From: Planctomycetaceae bacterium
GTDB lineage: Bacteria > Planctomycetota > Planctomycetia > Pirellulales > Pirellulaceae
Direction of reading: 5' to 3'
Assembly (NCBI GenBank): GCA_018660825.1
Contig: JABJJO010000042.1
Span: forward strand, 1-64,000
DNA: 64,000 nt
Shown here: positions 17,929 through 30,567 of the stretch, in pieces
How the letters are laid out: each line of letters starts with the position of its first letter
Numbering within the stretch: the first letter of the stretch is position 1
Position numbers and translations under genes: made by a program
Notes under the pieces: model-generated
Database searches by the model: none
The model's input: the letters and a program-made list of their open reading frames with translations, nothing else
Told to the model about the DNA's origin: nothing

Positions 17929-19854
17929 ATGAATAAACGGCTGATTGCTTATTACCTCAGTACAGTTTGTACATTTCTTGCTGTCGCGATGGGGTCTTGT
18001 GTTCTATTTGCGTTTCCTGTGTTGGGGCATCGCACCGGAGATGATTGGCAATCACTATCGTTTGAAACCGAGGGATTTCTGGGCTTACTTTTAAGTGTTG
18101 TTGTAAGCGTGGCGATTGGATTGATCTTAAGGCGGTATGCGGGTGATGATGTTAAATCGGAGACTCCTCGGCGCAAAGAGGCAATGGCAGTGGTCGGCTT
18201 GAGTTGGGTCATCGCTACGATTCTCGGAGCATTGCCGTTTTGGATTAGTGGTGTTCGCTATGCAGCTCCTCTGCGGCTCGACGCACCGGATCATATTGAA
18301 ATCTTCGATATGTCCATTGCGCCGAGGCAGCAATGGAAAGCACTAGATCAACCGGTTTCGGCAGATCAATTCGATGTACTCACTGCTTTGCTTGAAGATG
18401 ACTTACCATCCCAGGGAATGACATATGCTGAATTAAATACAGTCCTAGGCCGAGATGATTGTGGAAATATTGTTAAAAGCTTGGTTACCATTCCAGGGCT
18501 TAATCGTTGGTTGGCTGTTTCCAGTGAACTTGGCGGTTCGGTTCGACTTAAGTGGCTCAAGATGAAATTCGCGAATTCTGTCTTTGAATCTCAATCCGGC
18601 TTTAGTACGACTGGGGCCACGGTTATTAACAAACTAGAAGATCCTGGGTTAGTGCCATACTGTATTTTGTATTGGCGAAGTATGACGCACTTCTTAGGTG
18701 GCCTAGGGATCATTGTTTTGTTCGTCGTACTTCTGGGCGGCGATTCAGCGGGCAAAATACTCATGAAAGCCGAAATGCCCGGACCGTCCAAGGATGGTGC
18801 AACTCCTAAGATGCAAGATACGGCGCGACGATTTGGAATTTTCTATCTAGTACTCAATATCTTGCTAACGGTTCTTTTGATGTTCGCCGGCATGAACCTG
18901 TTTGATGCCATGTGTCACGCCTTTGGCACGATGGCCACCGGTGGCTTTAGCACTTACGACACCAGTGTTGGACATTTTGATAGTGCGACAATTGATTACA
19001 TTATTACGCTCTTCATGATTGCTGCAGGCACTAACTTCGCCTTGTTTTACACCTTGGTAGTCTTGGACAAATCAGGAAAAGATTTTTGGGTGTGGATTAA
19101 AGGGAAGTTGACGAGTATTTTCAGTGACATCGAATTTCGAGTTTACTTAGGAATTATTGTTTTTTCAACGATTGCGATCATGGCATCTGGGATGGTTGCA
19201 GGGGATTGGGATTTACCGGCCGATGCTGCGGCTGAAGATTCCATTGTGGCTGCAATATTACGTAGTATTCGATATGGCTTATTTCAAGTTGTAGCAATTG
19301 TGACCACCACAGGATTTGGAACACATGATTTTGATTCATGGAGCCAATTTGGTCGTTGCCTGATGTTTGCCTTGATGTTCATCGGAGGCTGTGCTGGCAG
19401 TACTGGTGGAGGGATGAAAGTTATTCGCCATGTCTTGTTTGTAAAGATATTGGGTCAAGAAGTTGAACACGTTTATCATCCATCCGTTGTCCGCCCGCTG
19501 AGGCTAGGCGGCGTGGTTTATGACAATCAAGAAATGCGGCGGAGTATTTTGGTCTACTTTGGATTGGTTACTATAATTTTTATGGCGAGTTGGCTCGCAA
19601 TTGTAGCATTGGAACCCAATAGCACTTGGCCGATTGACCAGACAGAAAACAAACTCATAGATTCAGCCAGTGCGGTGGCTGCGACGTTAAATAACATTGG
19701 CCCAGGTTTGGGAATTGTTGGAGCGACTAATAATTACAGCGACTATAGCCCAGCGAGCAAGTTGATTTTTACCTGGTTAATGATGCTTGGCCGATTGGAA
19801 TTATTTTCTATCCTCGTCCTCTTCTCATGGTCTTTTTGGAAACGATCTCGCTAA
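17929..19854 (+). CDS. trkH: Trk potassium uptake channel subunit TrkH
   Basis: 641 residues, longer than the usual 480-500. The four pore-loop filters are present: QSGFSTTGATV near residue 222, GTMATGGFSTYD near 335, IVTTTGFGTHD near 460, and ATLNNIGPGLG near 590. About ten membrane helices surround them. The extra length comes largely from an insertion of about 110 residues (about 108-215) between the third helix and the first pore loop. It is soluble, predicted extracytoplasmic, and contains acidic stretches. K+ translocation with TrkA is expected. A role for the insertion is unknown. Confidence 0.9.
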   Translation: MNKRLIAYYLSTVCTFLAVAMGSCVLFAFPVLGHRTGDDWQSLSFETEGFLGLLLSVVVSVAIGLILRRYAGDDVKSETPRRKEAMAVVGLSWVIATILGALPFWISGVRYAAPLRLDAPDHIEIFDMSIAPRQQWKALDQPVSADQFDVLTALLEDDLPSQGMTYAELNTVLGRDDCGNIVKSLVTIPGLNRWLAVSSELGGSVRLKWLKMKFANSVFESQSGFSTTGATVINKLEDPGLVPYCILYWRSMTHFLGGLGIIVLFVVLLGGDSAGKILMKAEMPGPSKDGATPKMQDTARRFGIFYLVLNILLTVLLMFAGMNLFDAMCHAFGTMATGGFSTYDTSVGHFDSATIDYIITLFMIAAGTNFALFYTLVVLDKSGKDFWVWIKGKLTSIFSDIEFRVYLGIIVFSTIAIMASGMVAGDWDLPADAAAEDSIVAAILRSIRYGLFQVVAIVTTTGFGTHDFDSWSQFGRCLMFALMFIGGCAGSTGGGMKVIRHVLFVKILGQEVEHVYHPSVVRPLRLGGVVYDNQEMRRSILVYFGLVTIIFMASWLAIVALEPNSTWPIDQTENKLIDSASAVAATLNNIGPGLGIVGATNNYSDYSPASKLIFTWLMMLGRLELFSILVLFSWSFWKRSR

Positions 19855-19884
19855 CAAGTTTTCGGTTCTCATTGGAACGAGACG

Positions 19885-20958
19885 ATGAAAGATGATCAGA
19901 TGGCTGATGCTAATCTAACGGAATTACTATCCGGTGCTTGCCCACAATCAGTAGCGCAATTGGAAGATGTGTTAAGCACTCCGACCGCCGCTGTCATTGA
20001 GATGTTCGCGCGTCTCGATGGTCATCTATTAATGGTCGGTGCGGCCGGAAAAATGGGACCAACAATGGTACGGATGGCCCATCGCGCGATTGTCGAATCG
20101 GGAAGTAAGATGCGATTAACCGCGGTGTCACGATTTAGTGATCTCAGCGTACGGGGGCGCATAGAAGAGTGGGGAATTGAAACAATCGCTTGCGATATGT
20201 TGTTGCCTTCGCAGGTTTCCGCGTTACCCAATTGCACGCATTTGATTAATTTGACAGGGTTCAAGTTCGGCGCTGCTGCTAACCCGGCACTTACTTGGGC
20301 CACCAATTGCGATATCCCCGCCACACTTTGCCGTCGGTTTTCAGAAAGCAAAATTGTGGCATTCTCGACTGGTAATGTCTATGGCATGGTGCCGCCTGCG
20401 ACGGGTGGAAGTTTGGAGTCGAGTCGTTTGGAGCCGGTGGGAGAGTATGCGATGGCGGCGTTGGGTCGCGAGCGAATGTTTCAATACTATTGCGAGCAAC
20501 TACAACTTCCGACGTTACTTGTGCGTTTGAATTATGCAACGGAATTGAGGTATGGAGTCTTAGTGGATGTTGCGACGTCAGTTTTGAACGATCAAACAAT
20601 TGATGTGACCACCGGCTTTGTCAACGTGATTTGGCAAGGAGATGCAAATGCGATGGCTTTACGATGTTTGGAATTGCCCACGGTTCCCGCTCGGCCAATA
20701 AATCTCACGGGGCCTACGGGGCTTAGTGTGAGAAGTGTTGCTCAACAGGTAGCCGCGCTCGCGGGCGTGGCAGTCGAAGTGACTGGAACGGAAAGAGAGA
20801 CGGCTTTGTTGAGTCAAGCGACACATAATTATGAGATCTTGGGAACGCCTCAAATGGATCTGGAAACTATGCTGCGGTGGACTGTGCAGTGGCTACAGCA
20901 AGGGGGTGCGTCATTGGGGAAACCAACCAAGTTTAATGCTACCGACGGAAAATTCTGA
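19885..20958 (+). CDS. NAD-dependent epimerase/dehydratase-like protein
   Basis: 357 residues. The first 45 residues are extra, then the Rossmann start HLLMVGAAGKMGPTMVR has GxxGxxG at about 53-59. Later a strand ends HLINLTGFKFG (normally where extended SDRs read NLAA), then VAFSTGNVYGMV in the catalytic Ser position. The YxxxK is replaced or shifted: EYAMAALGRERMFQYYCEQ shows Tyr but Gly instead of Lys at +4. The final RPINLTGP...SVRSVAQQ matches extended SDR C-termini. This makes it an SDR with an atypical active site; substrate unknown. It follows trkH by 30 bp but need not be functionally linked. Confidence 0.7.
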   Translation: MKDDQMADANLTELLSGACPQSVAQLEDVLSTPTAAVIEMFARLDGHLLMVGAAGKMGPTMVRMAHRAIVESGSKMRLTAVSRFSDLSVRGRIEEWGIETIACDMLLPSQVSALPNCTHLINLTGFKFGAAANPALTWATNCDIPATLCRRFSESKIVAFSTGNVYGMVPPATGGSLESSRLEPVGEYAMAALGRERMFQYYCEQLQLPTLLVRLNYATELRYGVLVDVATSVLNDQTIDVTTGFVNVIWQGDANAMALRCLELPTVPARPINLTGPTGLSVRSVAQQVAALAGVAVEVTGTERETALLSQATHNYEILGTPQMDLETMLRWTVQWLQQGGASLGKPTKFNATDGKF

Positions 20959-21148: not shown

Positions 21149-21970
21149 TCAACTGGCTACGGACGGGCTATTTTTCCATTGGCGAATTCGTTCCGTCAGA
21201 GGGTTAGTCGGACCTCGTCGTGACTGGGAAATTGTGTCGCTGTTGTGGTCGCTACGATTAGCCGAGAAGGCGTTGGTTGTGAGTTTCGCATTACTAATGC
21301 GAGCAATATTGAAACAAGAAGCAGATTCCCCACCGTCGCTTTGCCCGCTAATAAACCACATCTCGTTTTCATAAAAAATGGCGTGCGGCGCGAACTCAAT
21401 CCAGGTTTCCTCGTCCAACTGTTGGGGATCATGCGGCAGGTTTGCGATGTCCTTCGTGTGGTTGGCAACTAACAACTCAATCCGGTGTCGCCGCATGATA
21501 CTGTCGGCCACCGCTTGTAGAATGTCTCGCTGCAGTGAACAGGCCGCCTCGTGGTTAGAAAAAAAGCGACAGGCACGTTGCAATCGACGAATACTCACGC
21601 GTTGTGTTTCGTCGAGTTTGTCGATGAGCAATTCGAGAGTCTTTTCGATGATGGTTCTCGTACCATCGACTTGGAACCACGGGCAGCAGTAGAGTCCAAG
21701 GACGAATTCACGTATTTGTTCGAGTGTTATTTGTCGACGGATCGTGAAACTTTCGGAAGTTGGCAAAATCCGATAACCGTCAGCGAGATTATCAAAACGA
21801 ACAGGTAAACCCGAAGTGCGTATAACACTTAGGTCTCGATAAATAGTACGTTTGCTTACTTGGAATCGATCTGCTAATTCAACGGCGTTGAGTCCGGCTC
21901 CTTGTTGAATACAGGAAATGATTTCCAGAGTGCGAGTAATATTTTTTTTGTCAGATGAATTGTGAGTCAT
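21149..21970 (-). CDS. HTH-WYL transcriptional regulator
   Basis: A helix-turn-helix (RTLEIISCIQQGAGLNAVEL then SKRTIYRDLSVIR) of the HTH_11/DeoR type is followed by a WYL-like ligand-binding domain (HRIELLVANHTKD, EIWIEFAPHAI-like strands, then FNIARISNAKL). The open frame extends to 22153, but the ATG at 21970 has GGAGG ten bases upstream and removes an implausible Cys/Tyr-rich leader, so a 273-residue product is preferred. It is divergent from the asparagine-synthetase/radical-SAM/flavoprotein operon across 266 bp and is the natural candidate to control it. WYL regulators usually bind a small ligand or nucleic acid. Confidence 0.8.
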   Translation of the reverse strand: MTHNSSDKKNITRTLEIISCIQQGAGLNAVELADRFQVSKRTIYRDLSVIRTSGLPVRFDNLADGYRILPTSESFTIRRQITLEQIREFVLGLYCCPWFQVDGTRTIIEKTLELLIDKLDETQRVSIRRLQRACRFFSNHEAACSLQRDILQAVADSIMRRHRIELLVANHTKDIANLPHDPQQLDEETWIEFAPHAIFYENEMWFISGQSDGGESASCFNIARISNAKLTTNAFSANRSDHNSDTISQSRRGPTNPLTERIRQWKNSPSVAS

Positions 21971-22236
21971 GTAATTTTTGCCTCCATGCAAAATTCGTAC
22001 ATTATGAAATAGTTGCCAAGGATTGCAGTAACAACAATAACAACAGTTGAAAAATAACTGCTCTATATTCTTCAGTTGCCAACCAAGGGTTAAAGGCGCC
22101 CTTAAAAACATCGAAAAGCCAAATAAAAAAGTAGATTTGTGATGAATCCCCAAATAAGCCGGAATGCGTTAGAATACGGTGCGGCTTAAAGTTGCCAAAA
22201 TGAACTCAGTTATTAGTAAAAACCAGGAGAGCTTGT
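21971..22236. promoter_or_regulatory. Divergent promoter region with three copies of AGTTGCCAA
   Basis: The 9-mer AGTTGCCAA occurs three times, at 22011-22019, 22074-22082 and 22190-22198, all on the plus strand. A short dyad CAGTT-N7-AACTG spans 22044-22060, and a dyad AAGCCG...CGGCTT spans 22156-22187. AGGAG at about 22226 serves the rightward ATG at 22237. The repeated word is a good candidate operator for the divergent WYL regulator. Promoter -35/-10 pairs are not convincing by eye. Confidence 0.45.
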
Positions 22237-23568
22237 ATGCATCCGCACCGTTATGTTGAACGTTTAGTTGATTTGATAGATCCTGCGGCAAACGTGTTGT
22301 TAAATGTGACCAACGAGGAAGCTGCGGAAGCTGTTGCTGCAGGCGATATTCAGCGGGTTGGTGAAATCGACGGACAGTTTGCAATTATCCAAAAACGCGG
22401 CAATATTGTGCGCATGGCACGATCCATTGGGCGGCCAATGCGTTATTTTTTGGCAAAGCGGTCAGCAGGCCCCTGCTTGATCGTGGCTGAGCGGATGGAG
22501 GAAATCCAGCAGGCGCTAGCTGAGGAAGGACTTGCTGATCAGTTTCATCCGTCCTACACACGCATGGTACCGGCACATTACATTGTCGAGATTACGTTGA
22601 TTGGTTGCCCAGATCCAAATCCTGTGAACAAACGGTTTTTCACTCCACCGCGTAATGAACATAGCACAGACTTAAATGAAATAGGCCGAATGTATATAGG
22701 CAAAGTTGCTCAAGAATTGAATGATTGGCTTGATCATGTTCCTGCCGATGAACCTCTGGGCGTGTTGTTCTCCGGTGGTATCGATAGTGGTGCAGTCCTG
22801 CTGTTGCTGAACCACCTGTTGCTACAACGTGGTGAATCTGCAGGGCGACTCAAAGCATTTACGCTGAGTGTTGCTGGTACGTCTTCTGATGCCACTAACG
22901 CAAAACAGTTTTTAGACGAAACCGATTTAAGTATGTTGCTGGAAGTGATTGATGTTCCCTCCGAGCAAGTTGATTTCCGCGAAGCGATTCGGATTATCGA
23001 AGACTATAAGCCTTTGGACGTACAATCCGCAACAATGGCTTGGGCTTTAATGCAACAAATTCGTCAGCAATATCCAGATTGGAGGTATCTTATTGATGGT
23101 GATGGCGGCGACGAAAATCTTAAAGACTATCCTATCGAGGATAATCCTGAACTAACAATCGCGAGTGTTTTGAATAATTTGATGCTGTATCAAGAAGGCT
23201 GGGGTGTCGATTCCATTAAACATTCCCTGACGTATTCCGGCGGACAGAGTCGAGGTCATGTGCGATCTTATGCCCCCGCAGCGAAACTTGGATTCCGTGG
23301 TTTTAGTCCGTTCGCGTTACCAAGTGTGATCGGAGTTGCCGAAGGGATTCCATTTATCGAGTTGACGGATTGGAACCACGAACAGTTATATCGCTTGAAA
23401 GGTGAAATCGTGAAACGCGGAGTGGAGGCGATCACCGGTGTTACGATGCCAATTTTTGAAAAATGTCGATTTCAACATGGAGCAGTTTCTCTAGAGGGCT
23501 TTGCTGAATTGTTCCCCGCCGACGAACAGGTTTACCGGGATACTTTTGCAGATATCTTTATTCGATAA
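22237..23568 (+). CDS. Asparagine-synthetase-like ATP-PPi ligase with degenerate glutaminase half
   Basis: 443 residues. The C-terminal domain has the PP-loop VLFSGGIDSG (Ser179 onwards) and a second conserved loop LIDGDGGDENLKDYP near 287, as in asparagine synthetase B; it would adenylate a carboxylate and form an amide. The N-terminal 150 residues keep only the later strands of the class II glutaminase (IDGQFAIIQKRGNIVRMA), and the nucleophilic Cys2 is missing. It therefore cannot release ammonia from glutamine by the usual route, so free ammonia or another amine is the likely nucleophile. AGGAG lies nine bases before the ATG. Its stop overlaps the next start (TAATG), so it is coupled to the radical SAM gene. 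Confidence 0.75.
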   Translation: MHPHRYVERLVDLIDPAANVLLNVTNEEAAEAVAAGDIQRVGEIDGQFAIIQKRGNIVRMARSIGRPMRYFLAKRSAGPCLIVAERMEEIQQALAEEGLADQFHPSYTRMVPAHYIVEITLIGCPDPNPVNKRFFTPPRNEHSTDLNEIGRMYIGKVAQELNDWLDHVPADEPLGVLFSGGIDSGAVLLLLNHLLLQRGESAGRLKAFTLSVAGTSSDATNAKQFLDETDLSMLLEVIDVPSEQVDFREAIRIIEDYKPLDVQSATMAWALMQQIRQQYPDWRYLIDGDGGDENLKDYPIEDNPELTIASVLNNLMLYQEGWGVDSIKHSLTYSGGQSRGHVRSYAPAAKLGFRGFSPFALPSVIGVAEGIPFIELTDWNHEQLYRLKGEIVKRGVEAITGVTMPIFEKCRFQHGAVSLEGFAELFPADEQVYRDTFADIFIR

Positions 23569-24539
23569 TGACTACGGATCTCCCAACTCTGTCGGACCAG
23601 CAGATTGTCAATTTGCGCCCTGACCGCAATTCCGTTGATCCGTCCAAGCCGTATGCATTCATGGTGGAAGATGAATGTTCAGCCAGTGGTGAACTGACAA
23701 AAGTTGCGACGTTGTTTTTGACTAGCAGTGAATGTGCGTTTCGTTGCACCATGTGCGATCTCTGGAAAAATACGCTTGAGCAACCGGTAGAGTCCGGCGC
23801 AATCGGAAAACAGATTCGGTGGGCGTTAAACGAGTTAGAGATAGATCTAGCCGCTCCGCAACGACAAGGGATTTCTACGATCAAGCTCTACAACAGCGGC
23901 AACTTTTTCGACAACCGCGCGGTGCCTCGTAATGACTGGCCTGAAATCATAGAGTTGGTCGCAGGATTCGAATCCGTAATCGTCGAAAATCACCCAAAAC
24001 TATGCAAGCAGAATTGCTTAGAGTTTAAAAGCTTGCTGGCCGGACGATTGGAAATCGCAATGGGCCTCGAAACGGTGCATCCTCAAGTGTCGCGGTGGTT
24101 AAATAAACAGATGTGCTTGGAAGATTTCCAAGAGGCCACTCAACGGTTAATTTCGCATGATATCAACGTCCGCGCGTTCGTTTTATTGCGGCCACCGTTT
24201 TTGACGGAACAAGAAGGAGTGTACTGGGCCACAAAAACGATGGAATATGCTTTTGATTGTGGTGTGGAATGTTGTTCGTTGGTCCCGGTGCGAGGTGGTA
24301 ATGGTGTGTTGGATCAGTTGCAAAAACGGGGAGAATTTACTCCGCCGAATCTAAAATCGATGGAAAGTACGTTGGTCGCTGGCCTGCACATGAATCGTGG
24401 GCGCATATTGATGGATTTGTGGGATGTGGAGAGATTTGTGACTTGTCACCGTTGTGCGCGCGATCGACAAAATCGGATTTTGCAAATGAACCAAACACAG
24501 ACGGTTATTCAAGGGGATGAGTGTGGCAACTGTGGGTGA
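23568..24539 (+). CDS. RaSEA-like radical SAM enzyme
   Basis: 323 residues. The radical SAM cluster motif is C-x3-C-x2-C at Cys56, Cys60 and Cys63 (SSECAFRCTMCD). The following strands, IKLYNSGNFFD, VIVENHPKL, LEIAMGLETVHP and VRAFVLLRPPFLTEQEG, strongly recall the family of the archaeosine-synthase beta subunit RaSEA and its bacterial relatives. The C-terminus adds four Cys in two CxxC pairs (293/296 and 319/322), a likely zinc or auxiliary Fe-S site. It overlaps the flavoprotein gene by 23 bases and the ligase gene by one. The substrate is unknown; the partners suggest a tailored small molecule or nucleobase. Confidence 0.75.
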   Translation: MTTDLPTLSDQQIVNLRPDRNSVDPSKPYAFMVEDECSASGELTKVATLFLTSSECAFRCTMCDLWKNTLEQPVESGAIGKQIRWALNELEIDLAAPQRQGISTIKLYNSGNFFDNRAVPRNDWPEIIELVAGFESVIVENHPKLCKQNCLEFKSLLAGRLEIAMGLETVHPQVSRWLNKQMCLEDFQEATQRLISHDINVRAFVLLRPPFLTEQEGVYWATKTMEYAFDCGVECCSLVPVRGGNGVLDQLQKRGEFTPPNLKSMESTLVAGLHMNRGRILMDLWDVERFVTCHRCARDRQNRILQMNQTQTVIQGDECGNCG

Positions 24540-26049
24540 ACAAGGCAAACGATTTCTTGTGATTGGCGCGGGATTTTCCGGTTCGCTGCTGAGTGCCATT
24601 CTAGCGCGGCATGGCAAACAGGTTACTTTGATTGATCACGCCAAACATCCCCGTTTTGTCATTGGTGAATCCTCGACACCAGCAGCCGGATTGATTTTAC
24701 GAACGTTGGTCAAACGCTATGGACTATCGGAACTGGGGCCGTTGACTAGATATGGCCGTTGGGTGAACGAACTAGCGAGTGTGCGGCGAGGAGCAAAACA
24801 AGGGTTTAGCTATTTTTTTCACCAAGCCGATACAGACTTTCAAGTTGCTGAATCCCATCCAAATGAGTTATTAGTTGCCGCTAGTTCGGCGCTCGAATTA
24901 GCGGATACCCAGTGGTTGCGCTCAGATGTAGATCAGTTTTTATGTGATTACGCTAGGCAGCAAGGTGTTATCCTGCGTGACCTGACGACTTTAAAGTCAT
25001 TGCAGCGTGATGGAGTGAGTGGCGAATGGGCGACAACGGTTGTCGATAGCGCAGGTGGACAGGAGAGGTTGCAATTTGATTGGGTCGTGGATGCCTCAGG
25101 GCAAGGCGAAGCCGTCACCCGGTTATTGGGTTTGCCCAGCGGTGATCTGCATGGTTTGAAAACGAATACGGTAGCAGTGTTCAGCCATTTTGATGGTGTT
25201 AAGAGTTGGGATGCGCTGCTGGCCGAAGAGCGACAAGATACTAAGGACTTTCCGTTTCCGGCTGATACGTCAGCGCAACATCATGTACTTGAGGAAGGGT
25301 GGTTGTGGTGTTTGCGGTTTGATCATAGCGTGACGAGTGCTGGGCTTGTACTGGACGCCCACTCCCTCGCCGATGGTTGGCAACAAATCCCAGCCGAAAA
25401 AATGTGGCGCACACATATTGCGAGCTATCCAAGTTTGAACCGAATGTTTCAAGACGCTCAATTGTCTGTTATGCCCAATCGCTTTCTCAAGACGCAGCGA
25501 TTACAACGGATTGCTGGGCAGGCTGCTGGGCAAGGTTGGGTGAGTCTGCCACACACCGCTGGCTTTATCGACCCACTACATAGCACGGGTATTGCGCATT
25601 CAATGAGCGGAGTTGAACGATTGGCGGACATCTTCTTGAGTGTGGACAGTGGGCACCAAGTTGGAGTGGATGCCTATGGAGAACAAGTGCTAGGTGAACT
25701 AAAGTTGATTGATTTGCTGGTGGCAGGTTGCTACTTAGCGTTGCCATCGAAACGCCATTTTGAAGCATATTGCATGCTATATTTTGCGGCGGCTACGACT
25801 TACGAGAAAAATCGTATGGATTCCGATGATTGTAATCTCGGCCATGCGATGTTCCTCGCAGATGACGCGAAATGGGTAACGGCTGTACGGGATGTATTTT
25901 ATCACTTGCAGGAATTAGCAATGTCCCAAAATTGGGGGGAACCGGCACAATTTGAAGCGATTATTCGGAGAAAAATAAAACGGTATAATCATGCCGGATT
26001 ATGTGACGCTGCGGTGTCATCCATGTACCAATATACAGCGGCAATGTAG
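24517..26049 (+). CDS. FAD-dependent oxidoreductase, tryptophan-halogenase-like superfamily
   Basis: 510 residues. It begins with an FAD-binding Rossmann loop (VIGAGFSGSLLSAILARHG near 15-33), then GESSTPAAGLIL near 50, equivalent to the GESTVP region of flavin-dependent halogenases. Later SLPHTAGFIDPLHSTGIAHS near 345 contains the conserved GFIDPL(H/F)STG loop. The position of the WxWxIP halogenase motif reads GWLWCLRF (Trp262, Trp264), so the second Trp is kept but the IP is lost; halogenation is thus doubtful and hydroxylation or reduction equally possible. AAGGGG precedes the ATG, which lies inside the radical SAM gene. It is the third gene of the coupled operon. Confidence 0.75.
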   Translation: MSVATVGEQGKRFLVIGAGFSGSLLSAILARHGKQVTLIDHAKHPRFVIGESSTPAAGLILRTLVKRYGLSELGPLTRYGRWVNELASVRRGAKQGFSYFFHQADTDFQVAESHPNELLVAASSALELADTQWLRSDVDQFLCDYARQQGVILRDLTTLKSLQRDGVSGEWATTVVDSAGGQERLQFDWVVDASGQGEAVTRLLGLPSGDLHGLKTNTVAVFSHFDGVKSWDALLAEERQDTKDFPFPADTSAQHHVLEEGWLWCLRFDHSVTSAGLVLDAHSLADGWQQIPAEKMWRTHIASYPSLNRMFQDAQLSVMPNRFLKTQRLQRIAGQAAGQGWVSLPHTAGFIDPLHSTGIAHSMSGVERLADIFLSVDSGHQVGVDAYGEQVLGELKLIDLLVAGCYLALPSKRHFEAYCMLYFAAATTYEKNRMDSDDCNLGHAMFLADDAKWVTAVRDVFYHLQELAMSQNWGEPAQFEAIIRRKIKRYNHAGLCDAAVSSMYQYTAAM

Positions 26050-26399: not shown

Positions 26400-29237
26400 A
26401 TGAAGCGATTAATTTGTTCAACACTGATTTGCATAATACTTTCGTCTTCCGTGTTGGCTGAGAGTCCTCTACACGAACAAATCGATACGGCGGTTTCCCA
26501 GTATCAGGTGTTAAACAATGAGAATTTGGCTACGGACGCTGAGTTTCAGCGACGTGTTTACTTGGATCTGTTAGGAACGATTCCATCTGCCCAAGAAACG
26601 CGTTCCTTTTTAGACGATGCGTCTGCAGATAAACGCGAACAACTAGCGAATCGGATTATCGCTGATCCTCGCTTGAACCACCGTTTGGCGAATGTATTTG
26701 ACGTCATGTTGATGGAGCGAATTGCCGATGGGCAAATCAAATCCGCACAGTGGCGTCAGTATTTGTATGACTCATTCGTTGAAAACAAACCTTACAATAT
26801 TCTGGCTCGCGAAATATTAGCTTCCAATGGTGCTGACCCAACCTCCCGACCAGCCGCGAGATTTTATTTAGATCGAGCAGGTGAAACAAATCGGCTAACA
26901 CGGGATGTCGGTCGGATGTTCTTCGGCATGGACATGCAATGTGCACAATGTCACGATCACCCATTGATCGATGGTTATTTTCAACGTGATTACTACGGGT
27001 TGTTTGCATTTTTTAATCGCAGCCATATCTTAACAGATACAGCCAAGAAGAATTACTTTGCGGAAAAATCCGTCGGTAACGTTTCCTTTAAAAGCGTATT
27101 CACCGAGGAAGCTGGCGAAACAGGACCTCATTTGCCTGGAGACGCGCCGATTGCCGAGCCAATTCATAAAAAAATAGATGAATATAAAGTCCGACCTCGG
27201 GCGAACGTTGTGACTGTGCCGACATATAGTCGTCGAGAGCAATTGGCAGAGACAGCAACCAATGGCAAGAACCGAGCGTTCAACCGTAATATTGCCAATC
27301 GGCTCTGGGGATTAATGAACGGTCGTGCATTAGTTGCGCCCGTCGACTTACAGCACTCCGGAAATCCTCCACTCAATCCGGAATTGATGAGTGTACTTGA
27401 AGCAGGCATTGTGCAATTAAATTTCGACGTGAAGGTTTTTTTACGTGAGATTGCATTGTCAAAAACGTATCAACGTGCCTATCAGCTGGAATCGGGTGCC
27501 CAAGTGACGGCCGCCCACATCCAGGGGAAACTTGAAAGTGTTGAAACTGTACAGACTGAGTTGAGCCAGCAAGTCAGCGCTGCATCTCAAGCCTGGCAGC
27601 AACAGCAAGTTGTCGTTGCCAAACTCGACACGCAATGGACTGAAATTAGAGCGGCTTACGTAAAGGCGGATAAAGCCGCCTCGGTCAAACTGGATAAATA
27701 TTTAAAAGAGGACGGCATTCGTGTAACAGCGACGAATAGCATCACCCAGCGTTTACCCAAACGGGATGCATTAGCTATTGCCACCGCGGAAATTGATACT
27801 GTTCTAAAGCTATTACCCGCAGAAAAAGGGGTTGTGGATGCCGCGGCAGCGTTCAAGAAAAAATTAGCTGCGAGTAACGCTGAATTAATAAAGCTAGCAG
27901 CAACTCGCGTCAAAGCGGAGGGCAAAACCAAAGCGGAGTTAGCCGATCTTAGCCCATTACAAGTTGCTCTCGATACGGCCTGGCAAGTGTGGGAACCGGG
28001 AAAAATAGAACGGCAAGCGGCGGCCACGAAAGAACAAGTACTGCGAAACGCTTATGAAAAAATACAAGCGGAATTCAACGCAATGGACGCACAAAAACTT
28101 CGCTGGAAACGAATTCAAGTTGCGGCTGTACTCGACGAACAAGTTGTTTCTCAGCAGGCGCAGTTGCTGGTATTACAACAGAAAATTAACCAAAGCACAG
28201 GTCAAGTCAATGCGGACAAACAAGAATTAACCAAGCTCCAAAGTAATCAACAATCAGCGCAGCAAACCCACCAACAAGTGAAGAGTGCCTTAACGGGCGT
28301 CGAAAAACAACGAGCTTCCAAGCAAGTCGCCGTTGAATTGATGGATGAATTAATTGTTACAACCAACGCTGCGATTAAATCGATCTCCACCGACGACGAT
28401 GCCTTAGCCGTGGTTAGTCTATTGAAACAACAGCAAAGCCGTTTAGGTTCGGAGATGGTGGAAGTGGACAAGGACGTCAAAATTGTCCAGACCGAAGTGT
28501 CCGCAAAAGCAAAACAGCTTCAGTCTGCCGTGACGGCGGTGACAGAAATGCAAAAGGTACTTGATGCAAAGTTGGCTACCATGCAAACGCAACAACAACA
28601 ACTGGCGACCGCGCAACCGGCACTTGTAACCAGCCTTGAAAAACAGGCGGAAGCACATGAAAAACTTTCACGGGTGCTAGTATACGAGTTTGTCGTCAGT
28701 GATCTTAAACCACTGACACCAGAACAACTAGCAAATACGGTTCTGGAATCTCTCGGCGTCACCGAGACGTTTCGCGTTCAAGTAGAAGCGGAACTTGCCA
28801 AGACCAATCCACTGACTGATGCAGATAAACAAGATGCTGCAAGAATGGCAACTCGACAACGAGAGGTAAGCGAAAAAGTACAAGCGAAAATTGTTAGTCT
28901 AGAAAATGAATTCATCAAACTATATGCCGCGGGGGCGGGACAAGTGCAAACGGATTTTTTTGCAACGATCGACCAGGCGTTATATTTTACCAACGGCAGC
29001 CGAATTAAGGGTTGGGTGAATTCGAATTCGTATTTGACTGGGCGTTTGCTCAAAACTGAATCGGCCCCAGAAATTGCGGAACAACTTTATATTAGCTTGT
29101 TGAACCGCCGCCCAACCGCACAAGAGACGAAACAAGTAAGCGATTACCTAACAGCTCGTACAGATCAAAAAGCAGAGACGGTGCGTGAAATGATCTGGGC
29201 TTTGTTGGCGTCGACCGAGTTTAGATTTAATCACTAG
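26400..29237 (+). CDS. DUF1549/DUF1553 protein with a large coiled-coil insertion
   Basis: 945 residues. A signal peptide (MKRLICSTLICIILSSSVLA) is followed by DUF1549 (about 25-220: RRVYLDLLGTIPSAQE, MQCAQCHDHPLIDGYFQRD). The first part of DUF1553 (about 285-365: FNRNIANRLWGLMNGRALV, LREIALSKTYQRAYQ) comes next. Then about 410 residues (370-785) of Gln/Ala/Lys-rich heptad sequence form a predicted coiled coil, after which DUF1553 resumes (LLNRRPTAQETKQVSDYL near 905). Usually DUF1553 is uninterrupted. There is no cytochrome-like CxxCH domain at its N-terminus, in contrast to the 32.2 kb gene. It pairs with the DUF1501 gene 34 bp downstream. The family's function is unknown. Confidence 0.82.
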   Translation: MKRLICSTLICIILSSSVLAESPLHEQIDTAVSQYQVLNNENLATDAEFQRRVYLDLLGTIPSAQETRSFLDDASADKREQLANRIIADPRLNHRLANVFDVMLMERIADGQIKSAQWRQYLYDSFVENKPYNILAREILASNGADPTSRPAARFYLDRAGETNRLTRDVGRMFFGMDMQCAQCHDHPLIDGYFQRDYYGLFAFFNRSHILTDTAKKNYFAEKSVGNVSFKSVFTEEAGETGPHLPGDAPIAEPIHKKIDEYKVRPRANVVTVPTYSRREQLAETATNGKNRAFNRNIANRLWGLMNGRALVAPVDLQHSGNPPLNPELMSVLEAGIVQLNFDVKVFLREIALSKTYQRAYQLESGAQVTAAHIQGKLESVETVQTELSQQVSAASQAWQQQQVVVAKLDTQWTEIRAAYVKADKAASVKLDKYLKEDGIRVTATNSITQRLPKRDALAIATAEIDTVLKLLPAEKGVVDAAAAFKKKLAASNAELIKLAATRVKAEGKTKAELADLSPLQVALDTAWQVWEPGKIERQAAATKEQVLRNAYEKIQAEFNAMDAQKLRWKRIQVAAVLDEQVVSQQAQLLVLQQKINQSTGQVNADKQELTKLQSNQQSAQQTHQQVKSALTGVEKQRASKQVAVELMDELIVTTNAAIKSISTDDDALAVVSLLKQQQSRLGSEMVEVDKDVKIVQTEVSAKAKQLQSAVTAVTEMQKVLDAKLATMQTQQQQLATAQPALVTSLEKQAEAHEKLSRVLVYEFVVSDLKPLTPEQLANTVLESLGVTETFRVQVEAELAKTNPLTDADKQDAARMATRQREVSEKVQAKIVSLENEFIKLYAAGAGQVQTDFFATIDQALYFTNGSRIKGWVNSNSYLTGRLLKTESAPEIAEQLYISLLNRRPTAQETKQVSDYLTARTDQKAETVREMIWALLASTEFRFNH

Positions 29238-29271
29238 GATTGTCCTTAACGATCAGTTTTTAACATTAGTT

Positions 29272-30567
29272 GTGAGTAAGCCCATGAAAAGTAATTATGC
29301 ATGCAAATCAAACGAGCACGAAATTGCGAGGCGAGGTTTTTTAGGCACAATGTTGGGAACGGCTGGGGTTGTCGGTGGTCTCGGTGCCTTCACCAATCGG
29401 TCTATAGCCACCGAACTGGAAAGAAAACAAAAACGGGTGGTGGTGTTTAACATGGCCGGTGGAATCAGCCAGTTGGAAACATGGGATCCCAAGCCGGGGA
29501 CAGATACTGGCGGACCCTTTCGGGCAATACCGACATCGGTGCCAGGTGTCCACATATCAGAATTGTTGCCCAAAACAGCGAAGTTAATGCACCATTTAGC
29601 ATTAGTACGAAGTATTAACATCAAAGAAAATGATCATGGTAAAGGTCGTTATGCCATGTGGACTGGGCGCCGCCAAACACCTGCTCAAGATTTCCCGCAA
29701 ATCGGTGCAGTGATGGCAAAATCATTAGGTGCCGATAAAAACGCATTGCCGGGGCATATCCAAGTATCCAGCAGTACGGGTGGGCGCAGTAATGACTCGG
29801 CTTACTTGGGGCCGGCGTTTGCCAGTATTTCGATTGCCAGTGGAAAGCCTCCGGCCAATTCCGCGCGACCTGAGGGAATGACAGAAAAACAAGACATATT
29901 ACGAAACGAATTTCGTCGTAGCGCGGACAATCGATTTTCTTTGCGACGTCGCAGCGCGCAGACTGACGCTTACGCACAGAGTTATGAACAAGCGCAACAG
30001 CTCATGGCGAACCGTGATGTCTTTGATATTACCAAGGAGTCACCCAAAGATCATGAGCGCTATGGAAAACATGAGCTAGGGCAACATAGCTTATTAGCTC
30101 GACGATTGTTAGAAAAAGGTGTTACCTTTGTGCAAGTCACGCACTCGAACTATGATACGCACAACGAAAATTTCAATTTTCACCTAGAACAAGTCGGAGA
30201 ATTCGACAAAGCCTATTCAGCGTTGGTTGAGGATTTGGCAGTACGGGGAATGTTGGATAGCACGTTGATTATTGTCATGAGCGAATTTGGCCGTACCCCT
30301 CGTATCAATCAGTACTATGGCCGTGATCATTGGGGAACAGCGTGGTCGATTTGCCTAGGTGGTGCTGGGATTCAACGTGGTGCGGTGATTGGCTCAACCA
30401 ATGACAACGGTACAGCCGTGAAAGACCGAGAAGTTGATCACGGCCATTTGTTTCACACATACTTACAGGCCGTAGGAGTTGATTCATTAGGCAGCTTTAG
30501 CATCGGTGGTCAAGATATTCCTGTGGCTGATCCTTCGCATGCCCCGATTGAGGAGCTACTTGCATAA
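29272..30567 (+). CDS. DUF1501 protein with Tat signal
   Basis: 431 residues. A twin-arginine motif (R20-R21 in ARRGFLGTMLG) begins a Tat signal, followed by FNMAGGISQLETWDPKPG, the hallmark start of DUF1501. Later conserved blocks are KENDHGKGRYAMWTGRR, VTHSNYDTHNENFNFHLEQ, IVMSEFGRTPRINQ and GRDHWGTAWSICLGGAGI. These His/Asp positions resemble the sulfatase/alkaline phosphatase fold to which DUF1501 is related. The start shown is a GTG; an ATG four codons in (29284) is also possible. Its stop overlaps the WD40 start (TAATGA). Confidence 0.88.
   Translation: MSKPMKSNYACKSNEHEIARRGFLGTMLGTAGVVGGLGAFTNRSIATELERKQKRVVVFNMAGGISQLETWDPKPGTDTGGPFRAIPTSVPGVHISELLPKTAKLMHHLALVRSINIKENDHGKGRYAMWTGRRQTPAQDFPQIGAVMAKSLGADKNALPGHIQVSSSTGGRSNDSAYLGPAFASISIASGKPPANSARPEGMTEKQDILRNEFRRSADNRFSLRRRSAQTDAYAQSYEQAQQLMANRDVFDITKESPKDHERYGKHELGQHSLLARRLLEKGVTFVQVTHSNYDTHNENFNFHLEQVGEFDKAYSALVEDLAVRGMLDSTLIIVMSEFGRTPRINQYYGRDHWGTAWSICLGGAGIQRGAVIGSTNDNGTAVKDREVDHGHLFHTYLQAVGVDSLGSFSIGGQDIPVADPSHAPIEELLA

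Follow-up and report, generated by a model that had tools for sequence, protein, structure and literature searches.

A glutaminase-less amide ligase, a RaSEA-like radical SAM protein and a halogenase-like flavoprotein as a candidate pathway in Planctomycetota and Rhodothermales

Do three overlapping bacterial genes, for an amide ligase, a radical S-adenosylmethionine (SAM) protein and a halogenase-like flavoprotein, serve one pathway, or are they chance neighbours? The question is raised by a 64,000-nucleotide stretch of a Planctomycetaceae bacterium (contig JABJJO010000042.1, positions 1 to 64,000; hereafter the window), which comes from a draft assembly that is 96.6% complete (G000). The genes, here termed ASN, RS and HAL, follow one another on the + strand. 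ASN (22237-23568; 443 amino acids) encodes a predicted ATP-dependent amide ligase that resembles asparagine synthetases and β-lactam synthetase and has no glutaminase; RS (23568-24539; 323 amino acids) encodes a RaSEA-like radical SAM protein with a CxxxCxxC motif at 56/60/63 and optional C-terminal CxxC pairs; and HAL (24517-26049; 510 amino acids) encodes a flavin-dependent halogenase-like protein of the PltM and tetracycline 7-halogenase branch, in which WLWCLRF replaces WxWxIP. A preliminary description of the window, made from its letters and open reading frames, had proposed a single pathway on the strength of this stacking. The overlaps are as it gave them: ASN and RS share one base (TAATG) and RS and HAL share 23, with in-frame GTG codons at 24523 and 24532 as possible shorter starts of HAL. 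Full-length homologues of ASN, RS and HAL are present in many genera. We show that the three genes are intact, conserved and operon-like here, and that they are kept as a set in Planctomycetota and Rhodothermales.

Co-occurrence and linkage of the three genes

Co-occurrence, which the preliminary description had named beforehand as the check on its proposal, was scored in 60 genomes, namely the window's own and 59 relatives. The thresholds were E 1e-3 for RS, E 1e-3 minus two matches of about 24 bits for ASN, and E 1e-40 for HAL; matches dropped as weak were those of 19.9-24.1 bits for ASN (G014 and G036, with second matches in G020 and G032). RS was found in 28 genomes, ASN in 27 and HAL in 28, and the members of the trio recur in the same genomes: 26 contain all three, two contain two, one contains one and 31 contain none (two of the 31 hold a dropped ASN match of about 24 bits). 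A wider sample from the phylum (216 genomes, 3 of which belong to the first set as well) agrees, all three genes being found in the same seven genomes; weak matches of RS (72 bits, G189) and HAL (227-240 bits; G094, G125 and G183) were left out of this count. Across the 273 distinct genomes, the counts with both genes, the first only, the second only and neither were 33, 0, 1 and 239 for ASN–RS, 32, 1, 2 and 238 for ASN–HAL, and 33, 1, 1 and 238 for RS–HAL. Fisher's test, with phylogeny ignored, gave P values of 9e-42 for ASN–RS, 4e-38 for ASN–HAL and 3e-40 for RS–HAL over these genomes and, counting one genome per genus of the 60, of 3e-13, 8e-11 and 5e-12 in the same order.

Linkage of the genes is loose and the set is retained. 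In six-frame searches of the loci, a single locus holds the trio in 18 of the 26 genomes, and the other 8 have at least one gene elsewhere or lost at a contig end; in one genome of the phylum sample (G146), ASN, RS and HAL each lie on a contig of their own. When species genomes were scanned with ASN, at least 579 ASN-encoding stretches were confirmed. At the best 80 of these, some of which have a short fetched flank, ASN is accompanied by RS and HAL in 29 and by RS without HAL in 10, and neither is in the flank in 41 (the RS of one locus, L125, is a locus-edge fragment). Used as a fresh test, the 41 genomes without RS at the ASN locus proved to encode RS elsewhere in 38 cases (once as a contig-end fragment), HAL in 38 (once at 332 bits) and both in 36. 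The set thus survives dispersal, and we consider this the strongest evidence for one shared function of ASN, RS and HAL. It also answers the case that the preliminary description had raised against itself, in which homologues would always be scattered and the neighbours unrelated: the genes are often dispersed, yet they are found in the same genomes.

The set reaches beyond the Planctomycetota. It is carried by the complete genome of Roseithermus sacchariphilus MEBiC09517 (Rhodothermota, NCBI). In the class to which another Rhodothermales-titled genome belongs, RS was found in 42 of the 195 genomes; the best 30 RS loci, with flanks of up to 1.5 kb, comprise 16 with ASN-RS-HAL, 12 with RS-HAL (in one of which HAL is a 35-bit edge only), one with ASN-RS and one with RS by itself. 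Together with co-occurrence, this trio order in Rhodothermales supports the idea of a single pathway. In quick trees of 36 sets, the rows titled Roseithermus, Salinivenus and GSL form one group in both ASN (98) and HAL (88), and distances correlate between ASN and RS (0.72), ASN and HAL (0.51) and RS and HAL (0.56). These comparisons fit a shared history with some reshuffling, the trees being too weak to date transfers.

What the three proteins have kept and lost

ASN belongs to the Asn_synthase family PF00733 (6.3e-15; 56.1 bits against a cut-off of 21), which was matched by 31 of 31 members, and it scores far under the model for glutamine-hydrolysing asparagine synthase, TIGR01536 (49.5 bits against 267). 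A separate gene elsewhere in the same genome reaches 499 bits against that cut-off of 267, which rules out ASN as the house-keeping asparagine synthetase. The PP-loop Ser179 noted in the preliminary description sits in SGGIDS. All 101 ASN sequences keep the residues tested in SGGxDS and GDxxDE, all 100 filled rows have Lys409, and DGDGGDE is entirely invariant in the 31 sequences of alignment A5, the other 30 of which (including Rhodothermota and other titles) are 60-78% identical to the ASN of the window. Motif counts for all three proteins refer to distinct strings, some near-identical, with fragments under set limits left out.

The glutaminase half of ASN had been described as lacking Cys2. 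The cysteine is indeed absent, the protein starting with MHPHRYVE where TIGR01536 has its N-terminal nucleophile cysteine, but more than one residue has gone. In an AlphaFold2 model built from 31 sequences (predicted local distance difference test (pLDDT) 86.0; residues 1-6 of low confidence, most of 316-330 with pLDDT below 50), residues 4-8 align structurally with residues 31-41 of full-length relatives, the start meeting residue 40 of β-lactam synthetase, 37 of human ASNS, 40 of Escherichia coli AsnB, 31 of carbapenam synthetase and 41 of TsnB9. The nucleophile end of the N-terminal nucleophile (Ntn) fold, with its catalytic cysteine, is therefore absent; the open frame spans 454 codons, so there is no room in it for a longer N-terminus. 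The best structural matches were β-lactam synthetase 1mc1 (Z 24.6, 376 aligned, 3.9 Å), which came first in both fold lists, human ASNS (Z 23.9), AsnB (Z 23.4), carbapenam synthetase (Z 21.0) and TsnB9 (Z 19.5). TsnB9 was also the sole single-sequence match in the PDB at E 0.01, and asparagine synthetases were found by profile. A search of plasmids returned no ASN match. Two ASN genes stand apart: a one-contig genome (G035) has a second, more divergent copy (702 bits; L154:8670-10004, G035:C1 5381676-5382989) about 1 Mb from its trio, and the ASN of the draft genome G012 (L033:11190-12524) contains a single in-frame TAG, either a sequencing error or decay.

RS carries the cysteines that had been read from the window protein, at 56/60/63 and in CxxC pairs at 293/296 and 319/322. 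The radical SAM cysteines 56/60/63 are present in 59 of 59 RS sequences, and the four tail cysteines in 48, 51, 51 and 38 of the 59. In five further genomes (L163-L167), RS ends directly after an MNxxQ stretch and the whole four-cysteine C-terminal tail is absent. Widespread as they are, the CxxC pairs are not universal, and they look more like a metal site of structural importance than a second essential cluster. Recoded stop codons were considered and rejected, as the apparent internal stops are normal ends after MNxxQ (G288 is a fragment only). Apparent internal stops also occur in the RS matches of G405 and G347 from the Rhodothermales-class scan.

The likeness of RS to RaSEA holds up in part: RS matches the RaSEA model TIGR01210, as do all 39 members examined, but its 104.3 bits fall under the family cut-off of 212, a cut-off exceeded in 3 of 14 named genomes that served as a control. 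The MnmL/YtqA model was matched by 30 of the 39 members and the PhpK P-methyltransferase model by 28. An AlphaFold2 model of RS (pLDDT 96.5) is closest to queuine lyase 6p78 (Z 17.9, 217 aligned), followed by Elp3 (Z 16.5), with many other radical SAM enzymes just behind, and Foldseek returned generic radical SAM folds. A phage search gave no RS match, and a plasmid search gave two distant ones. On the Streptomyces plasmid pFRL5 (NC_023285.1; L159:14932-16047), a gene for a radical SAM protein (29% identity to RS, 77% of the query covered) stands in line with genes for a P450, a glycosyltransferase, a carbamoyltransferase and a protein annotated as serine hydroxymethyltransferase; these may form a further biosynthetic cluster that uses an RS-like enzyme.

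The nearest solved relatives of HAL, over most of its chain, are PltM and tetracycline 7-halogenase, and PltM (6bza) was matched at 3.4e-43 in a single-sequence search and at 6.1e-81 in a profile search. Lys94 of HAL aligns with PltM chain residue 107, which corresponds to Lys87 if 20 tag residues are subtracted, and lysine occupies this position in 47 of 47 HAL sequences. The window protein does contain WLWCL in place of WxWxIP, as the preliminary description had it. Across the family WxW is retained (46/47) and IP is mostly Leu-Arg: the position of Arg267, in the place of the proline, is arginine in 40 of 47 and proline in one. A flavin monooxygenase or dehydrogenase with no halogenase activity would suit this replacement, together with the QhpG, GoxB and LodB flavoprotein models, all of which match HAL far under their cut-offs. 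The conserved lysine and WxW speak for a halogenase, and from the alignments we judge the non-halogenase alternative rather unlikely, though one to be taken seriously. The altered motif, kept in most of the family, could be used to probe the role of IP in WxWxIP. A strong HAL (541 bits; G016:C460, L157:8614-10077) was also found in a 95%-complete genome that has no ASN or RS matches, and possibly acts alone there.

The preliminary description had allowed that hidden Markov models might assign known functions to these genes. Scans of ASN, RS and HAL against Pfam, NCBIfam and PADLOC gave superfamily-level matches only, with no equivalog above cut-off and no known pathway, and in the open-licence papers searched we found no published description of the trio, its co-occurrence or its motif changes. 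The enzyme superfamilies are known, and what appears to be new is a pathway assembled from divergent representatives of them.

A proposed pathway and its alternatives

We favour, with moderate confidence, a model in which ASN, RS and HAL are devoted to a single compact biosynthetic pathway, which takes a common metabolite as its starting point and probably yields a halogenated amide. Enzymes of the ASN family form acyl-adenylates and amides, radical SAM enzymes generate a 5′-deoxyadenosyl radical, and flavin halogenases produce a halogenating species. By homology, ASN would spend ATP to turn a carboxylate into an acyl-adenylate and couple an amine to the activated group; as ASN has no glutaminase, this amine would not be ammonia that ASN itself cuts from glutamine. 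RS would then cut or rearrange a C–N or C–C bond through radical chemistry, and HAL, which would depend on a separate flavin reductase, would consume reduced flavin, O2 and halide and place chlorine or bromine on an electron-rich part of the product. The three enzymes are proposed to act in series on one small molecule.

Several observations weigh against this model. Three genomes break the set: G021 has RS and HAL without ASN, its RS lying at a contig end; G040 has ASN and RS without HAL; and G016 has HAL only. A further 5 of the 41 genomes with dispersed loci lack RS, HAL or both. Many of the genomes counted are drafts, and the Fisher P values take no account of shared ancestry. The RS tree joins no more than two of the three Rhodothermota- or Bacteroidetes-titled rows. 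The reaction of RS is not readable from homology because its score is well under the RaSEA cut-off and most members also match PhpK, and without the IP of WxWxIP it is uncertain whether HAL halogenates or carries out another flavin oxidation. Finally, there may be a lineage-specific fourth gene, phosphohexomutase-like, as described below.

One rival reading is a nitrogen relay. ASN might join the amine of an amino acid to a carboxylate, RS might cut the C–N bond of this amino acid so that its nitrogen is left as a primary amide, and HAL might halogenate the product. RaSEA, MnmL and queuine lyase act through C–N cleavage; the MnmL/YtqA and RaSEA matches of RS and its top structural match to queuine lyase are consistent with such a nitrogen relay, as are the missing glutaminase start of ASN and the fact that ASN and RS form the tightest pair, with 33 genomes containing both, none ASN alone and one RS alone. 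The logic would be that of archaeosine synthesis with another ligase: ArcS adds lysine to preQ0, after which RaSEA leaves archaeosine. ArcS of Thermococcus kodakarensis makes no use of ammonium, asparagine or glutamine, transfers lysine and shows activity only when bound in a complex with RaSEA (PMC11298593). The same paper, however, reports that ArcS of Methanocaldococcus jannaschii uses ammonium, asparagine or glutamine (PMC11298593). ASN, moreover, is not an ArcS, and free ammonia could serve it; the homology goes no further than the superfamily, queuine lyase is ahead by only 1.4 Z with radical SAM enzymes of other chemistry close behind, and the PhpK model matched by 28 of 39 RS members is that of a methyltransferase. 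HAL is nearly as tightly linked, yet the relay has no need for it. On this analogy we advance the relay tentatively, as an idea that is on the whole unlikely. Slightly more tentative is its complete form, archaeosine-type chemistry turned by bacteria to a small molecule, in which a glutaminase-free ligase would load an amino acid onto a carboxylate, a RaSEA-like lyase would remove the carbon skeleton and leave the nitrogen as a primary amide, and a divergent halogenase would finish the product. If true, this would amount to a new glutaminase-free amide route in many uncharacterised Planctomycetota and Rhodothermales. The tight ASN–RS pairing could reveal whether a radical C–N lyase donates amide nitrogen outside RNA modification.

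Alternatively, ASN might form a lactam within one substrate, which RS and HAL would decorate. β-Lactam synthetase heads both fold lists, and to our knowledge neither it nor carbapenam synthetase has a working glutaminase. Its Z of 24.6 is nevertheless a tie with the 23.9 of human ASNS, and no clavam or carbapenem gene was recognised among the recurrent neighbours, for which no search by name was made. Ring closure, a reading based on fold similarity, seems to us doubtful.

The set might also act on transfer RNA (tRNA) or another nucleic acid, like RaSEA, MnmL and Elp3. RNA modification is indeed the role of the families behind the top two NCBIfam models of RS, and of Elp3 among its structural matches, but HAL is nearest to PltM and tetracycline 7-halogenase, the substrates of which are small phenols, and the distribution of the set is patchy, 31 of 60 genomes being without all three genes. 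Nor does the set follow QueC, which was above cut-off in 51 of the 60 genomes: 19 of 26 with the trio, 29 of 31 with none of the three genes and 3 of 3 mixed. One trio genome, G012 (91% complete), had a 25-bit QueC match only. We regard modification of a macromolecule as improbable. Dependence of the trio on 7-deazaguanine metabolism is rejected by the QueC counts (19/26 versus 29/31), and the nucleobase-derived product floated in the preliminary description is not established. That ASN, RS and HAL are unrelated house-keeping genes brought together by chance is scarcely credible: the genes are dispersed in many genomes and their flanking genes in the genus are also syntenic, but the co-occurrence in 273 genomes and in the 41 genomes with dispersed loci, and the trio order in Rhodothermales, reject such a coincidence.

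Regulator, neighbouring genes and known systems

A WYL-type gene (21149-21970, - strand; 273 amino acids from ATG) is divergent from ASN and encodes a putative transcriptional regulator of the helix–turn–helix (HTH) and WYL type; a listed open reading frame of 334 amino acids, to 22153, has a TTG start. The protein exceeds the cut-off for HTH_11 (34 bits against 25) and matches the PADLOC WYL model (67 bits, residues 11-248), and its Pfam WYL score of 17.8 bits is under the cut-off of 21.8. The preliminary description had placed the three genes under this regulator. It is present at the locus, but BLASTP on called open reading frames at 26 loci found it divergent from ASN only in seven congener loci and L033; by this comparison it is mainly a genus-level feature and outside the conserved unit. 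A defence system is ruled out, as PADLOC matches the WYL regulator only.

The intergenic region between the WYL gene and ASN (21971-22236), a presumed promoter and operator region, contains blocks common to the window and six congeners: upstream of ASN, alignment A6 shares AGTTGC, GGCG, CGTTA-AATA and AGGA. In the window AGTTGCCAA occurs three times in this region; some 9-mer occurred three times in 25 of 5000 mononucleotide shuffles of it. GTTGCCAA was found in none of eight other loci (one compared over 62 bases only), and the triple AGTTGCCAA is not conserved as such, a single copy of the AGTTGC block being common to the six aligned congeners. Promoter and terminator scans gave scores under the shuffle means.

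Among the 40 neighbour families listed, no other family is consistent beside the trio. The commonest were rejected as a fourth partner, being by their coordinates out-of-frame or antisense shadows of the trio genes. A gene that looks phosphohexomutase-like by eye (the L085_s36 family, near the ASN of L085) lies less than 3 kb from a trio gene in 10 loci, one other family recurs in 12 loci, and an aldehyde-dehydrogenase-like gene stands by HAL in 4 loci, three of which represent one family of genomes. Read by eye, these recurrent families may reflect lineage synteny. In the window the trio is flanked by TrkH, an epimerase-like gene and two large genes (17929-20958 and 26400-30567), and the order of flanking genes is the same in seven congener loci and partly so in L033 and L042.

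With at least 579 ASN stretches, the proposed three-gene pathway is widespread in environmental bacteria and small enough to be expressed whole in a laboratory host. The accessible part of a review of planctomycete metabolites names chlorinated compounds in the phylum and contains neither 'asparagine' nor 'radical SAM' (PMC12078418); we claim no link.

Among known systems, the ArcS–RaSEA pair of archaeosine synthesis in euryarchaea resembles the trio in pairing RaSEA, as a complex, with a ligase that does not use glutamine in T. kodakarensis (PMC11298593). The trio differs in being bacterial, in the asparagine-synthetase fold of ASN, in an RS that is under the RaSEA cut-off and in its third, halogenase-like enzyme. 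β-Lactam and carbapenam synthetases share with ASN the asparagine-synthetase fold and the ATP PP-loop site (Z 24.6 and 21.0), whereas the first part of the Ntn fold is missing from ASN, which is 12-17% identical to them and has other partners. The hydroxyamidotransferase TsnB9 (Z 19.5) and the asparagine synthetases are of the same fold family, with a longer N-terminal half. PltM and tetracycline 7-halogenase resemble HAL in the aligned lysine and the retained WxW, and differ in that HAL has mostly Leu-Arg for IP and different gene partners. The ammosamide cluster, with the halogenase Amm3 and the putative asparagine synthetase Amm20, likewise combines halogenation and amidation on one small aromatic acid; Amm20 is described as needing its N-terminus, the cluster builds on a peptide scaffold, and the radical-SAM-like Amm10 is without the cysteine motif (PMC12715798). 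Ammosamide is the nearest natural-product parallel that we found to the proposed pathway of ASN, RS and HAL.

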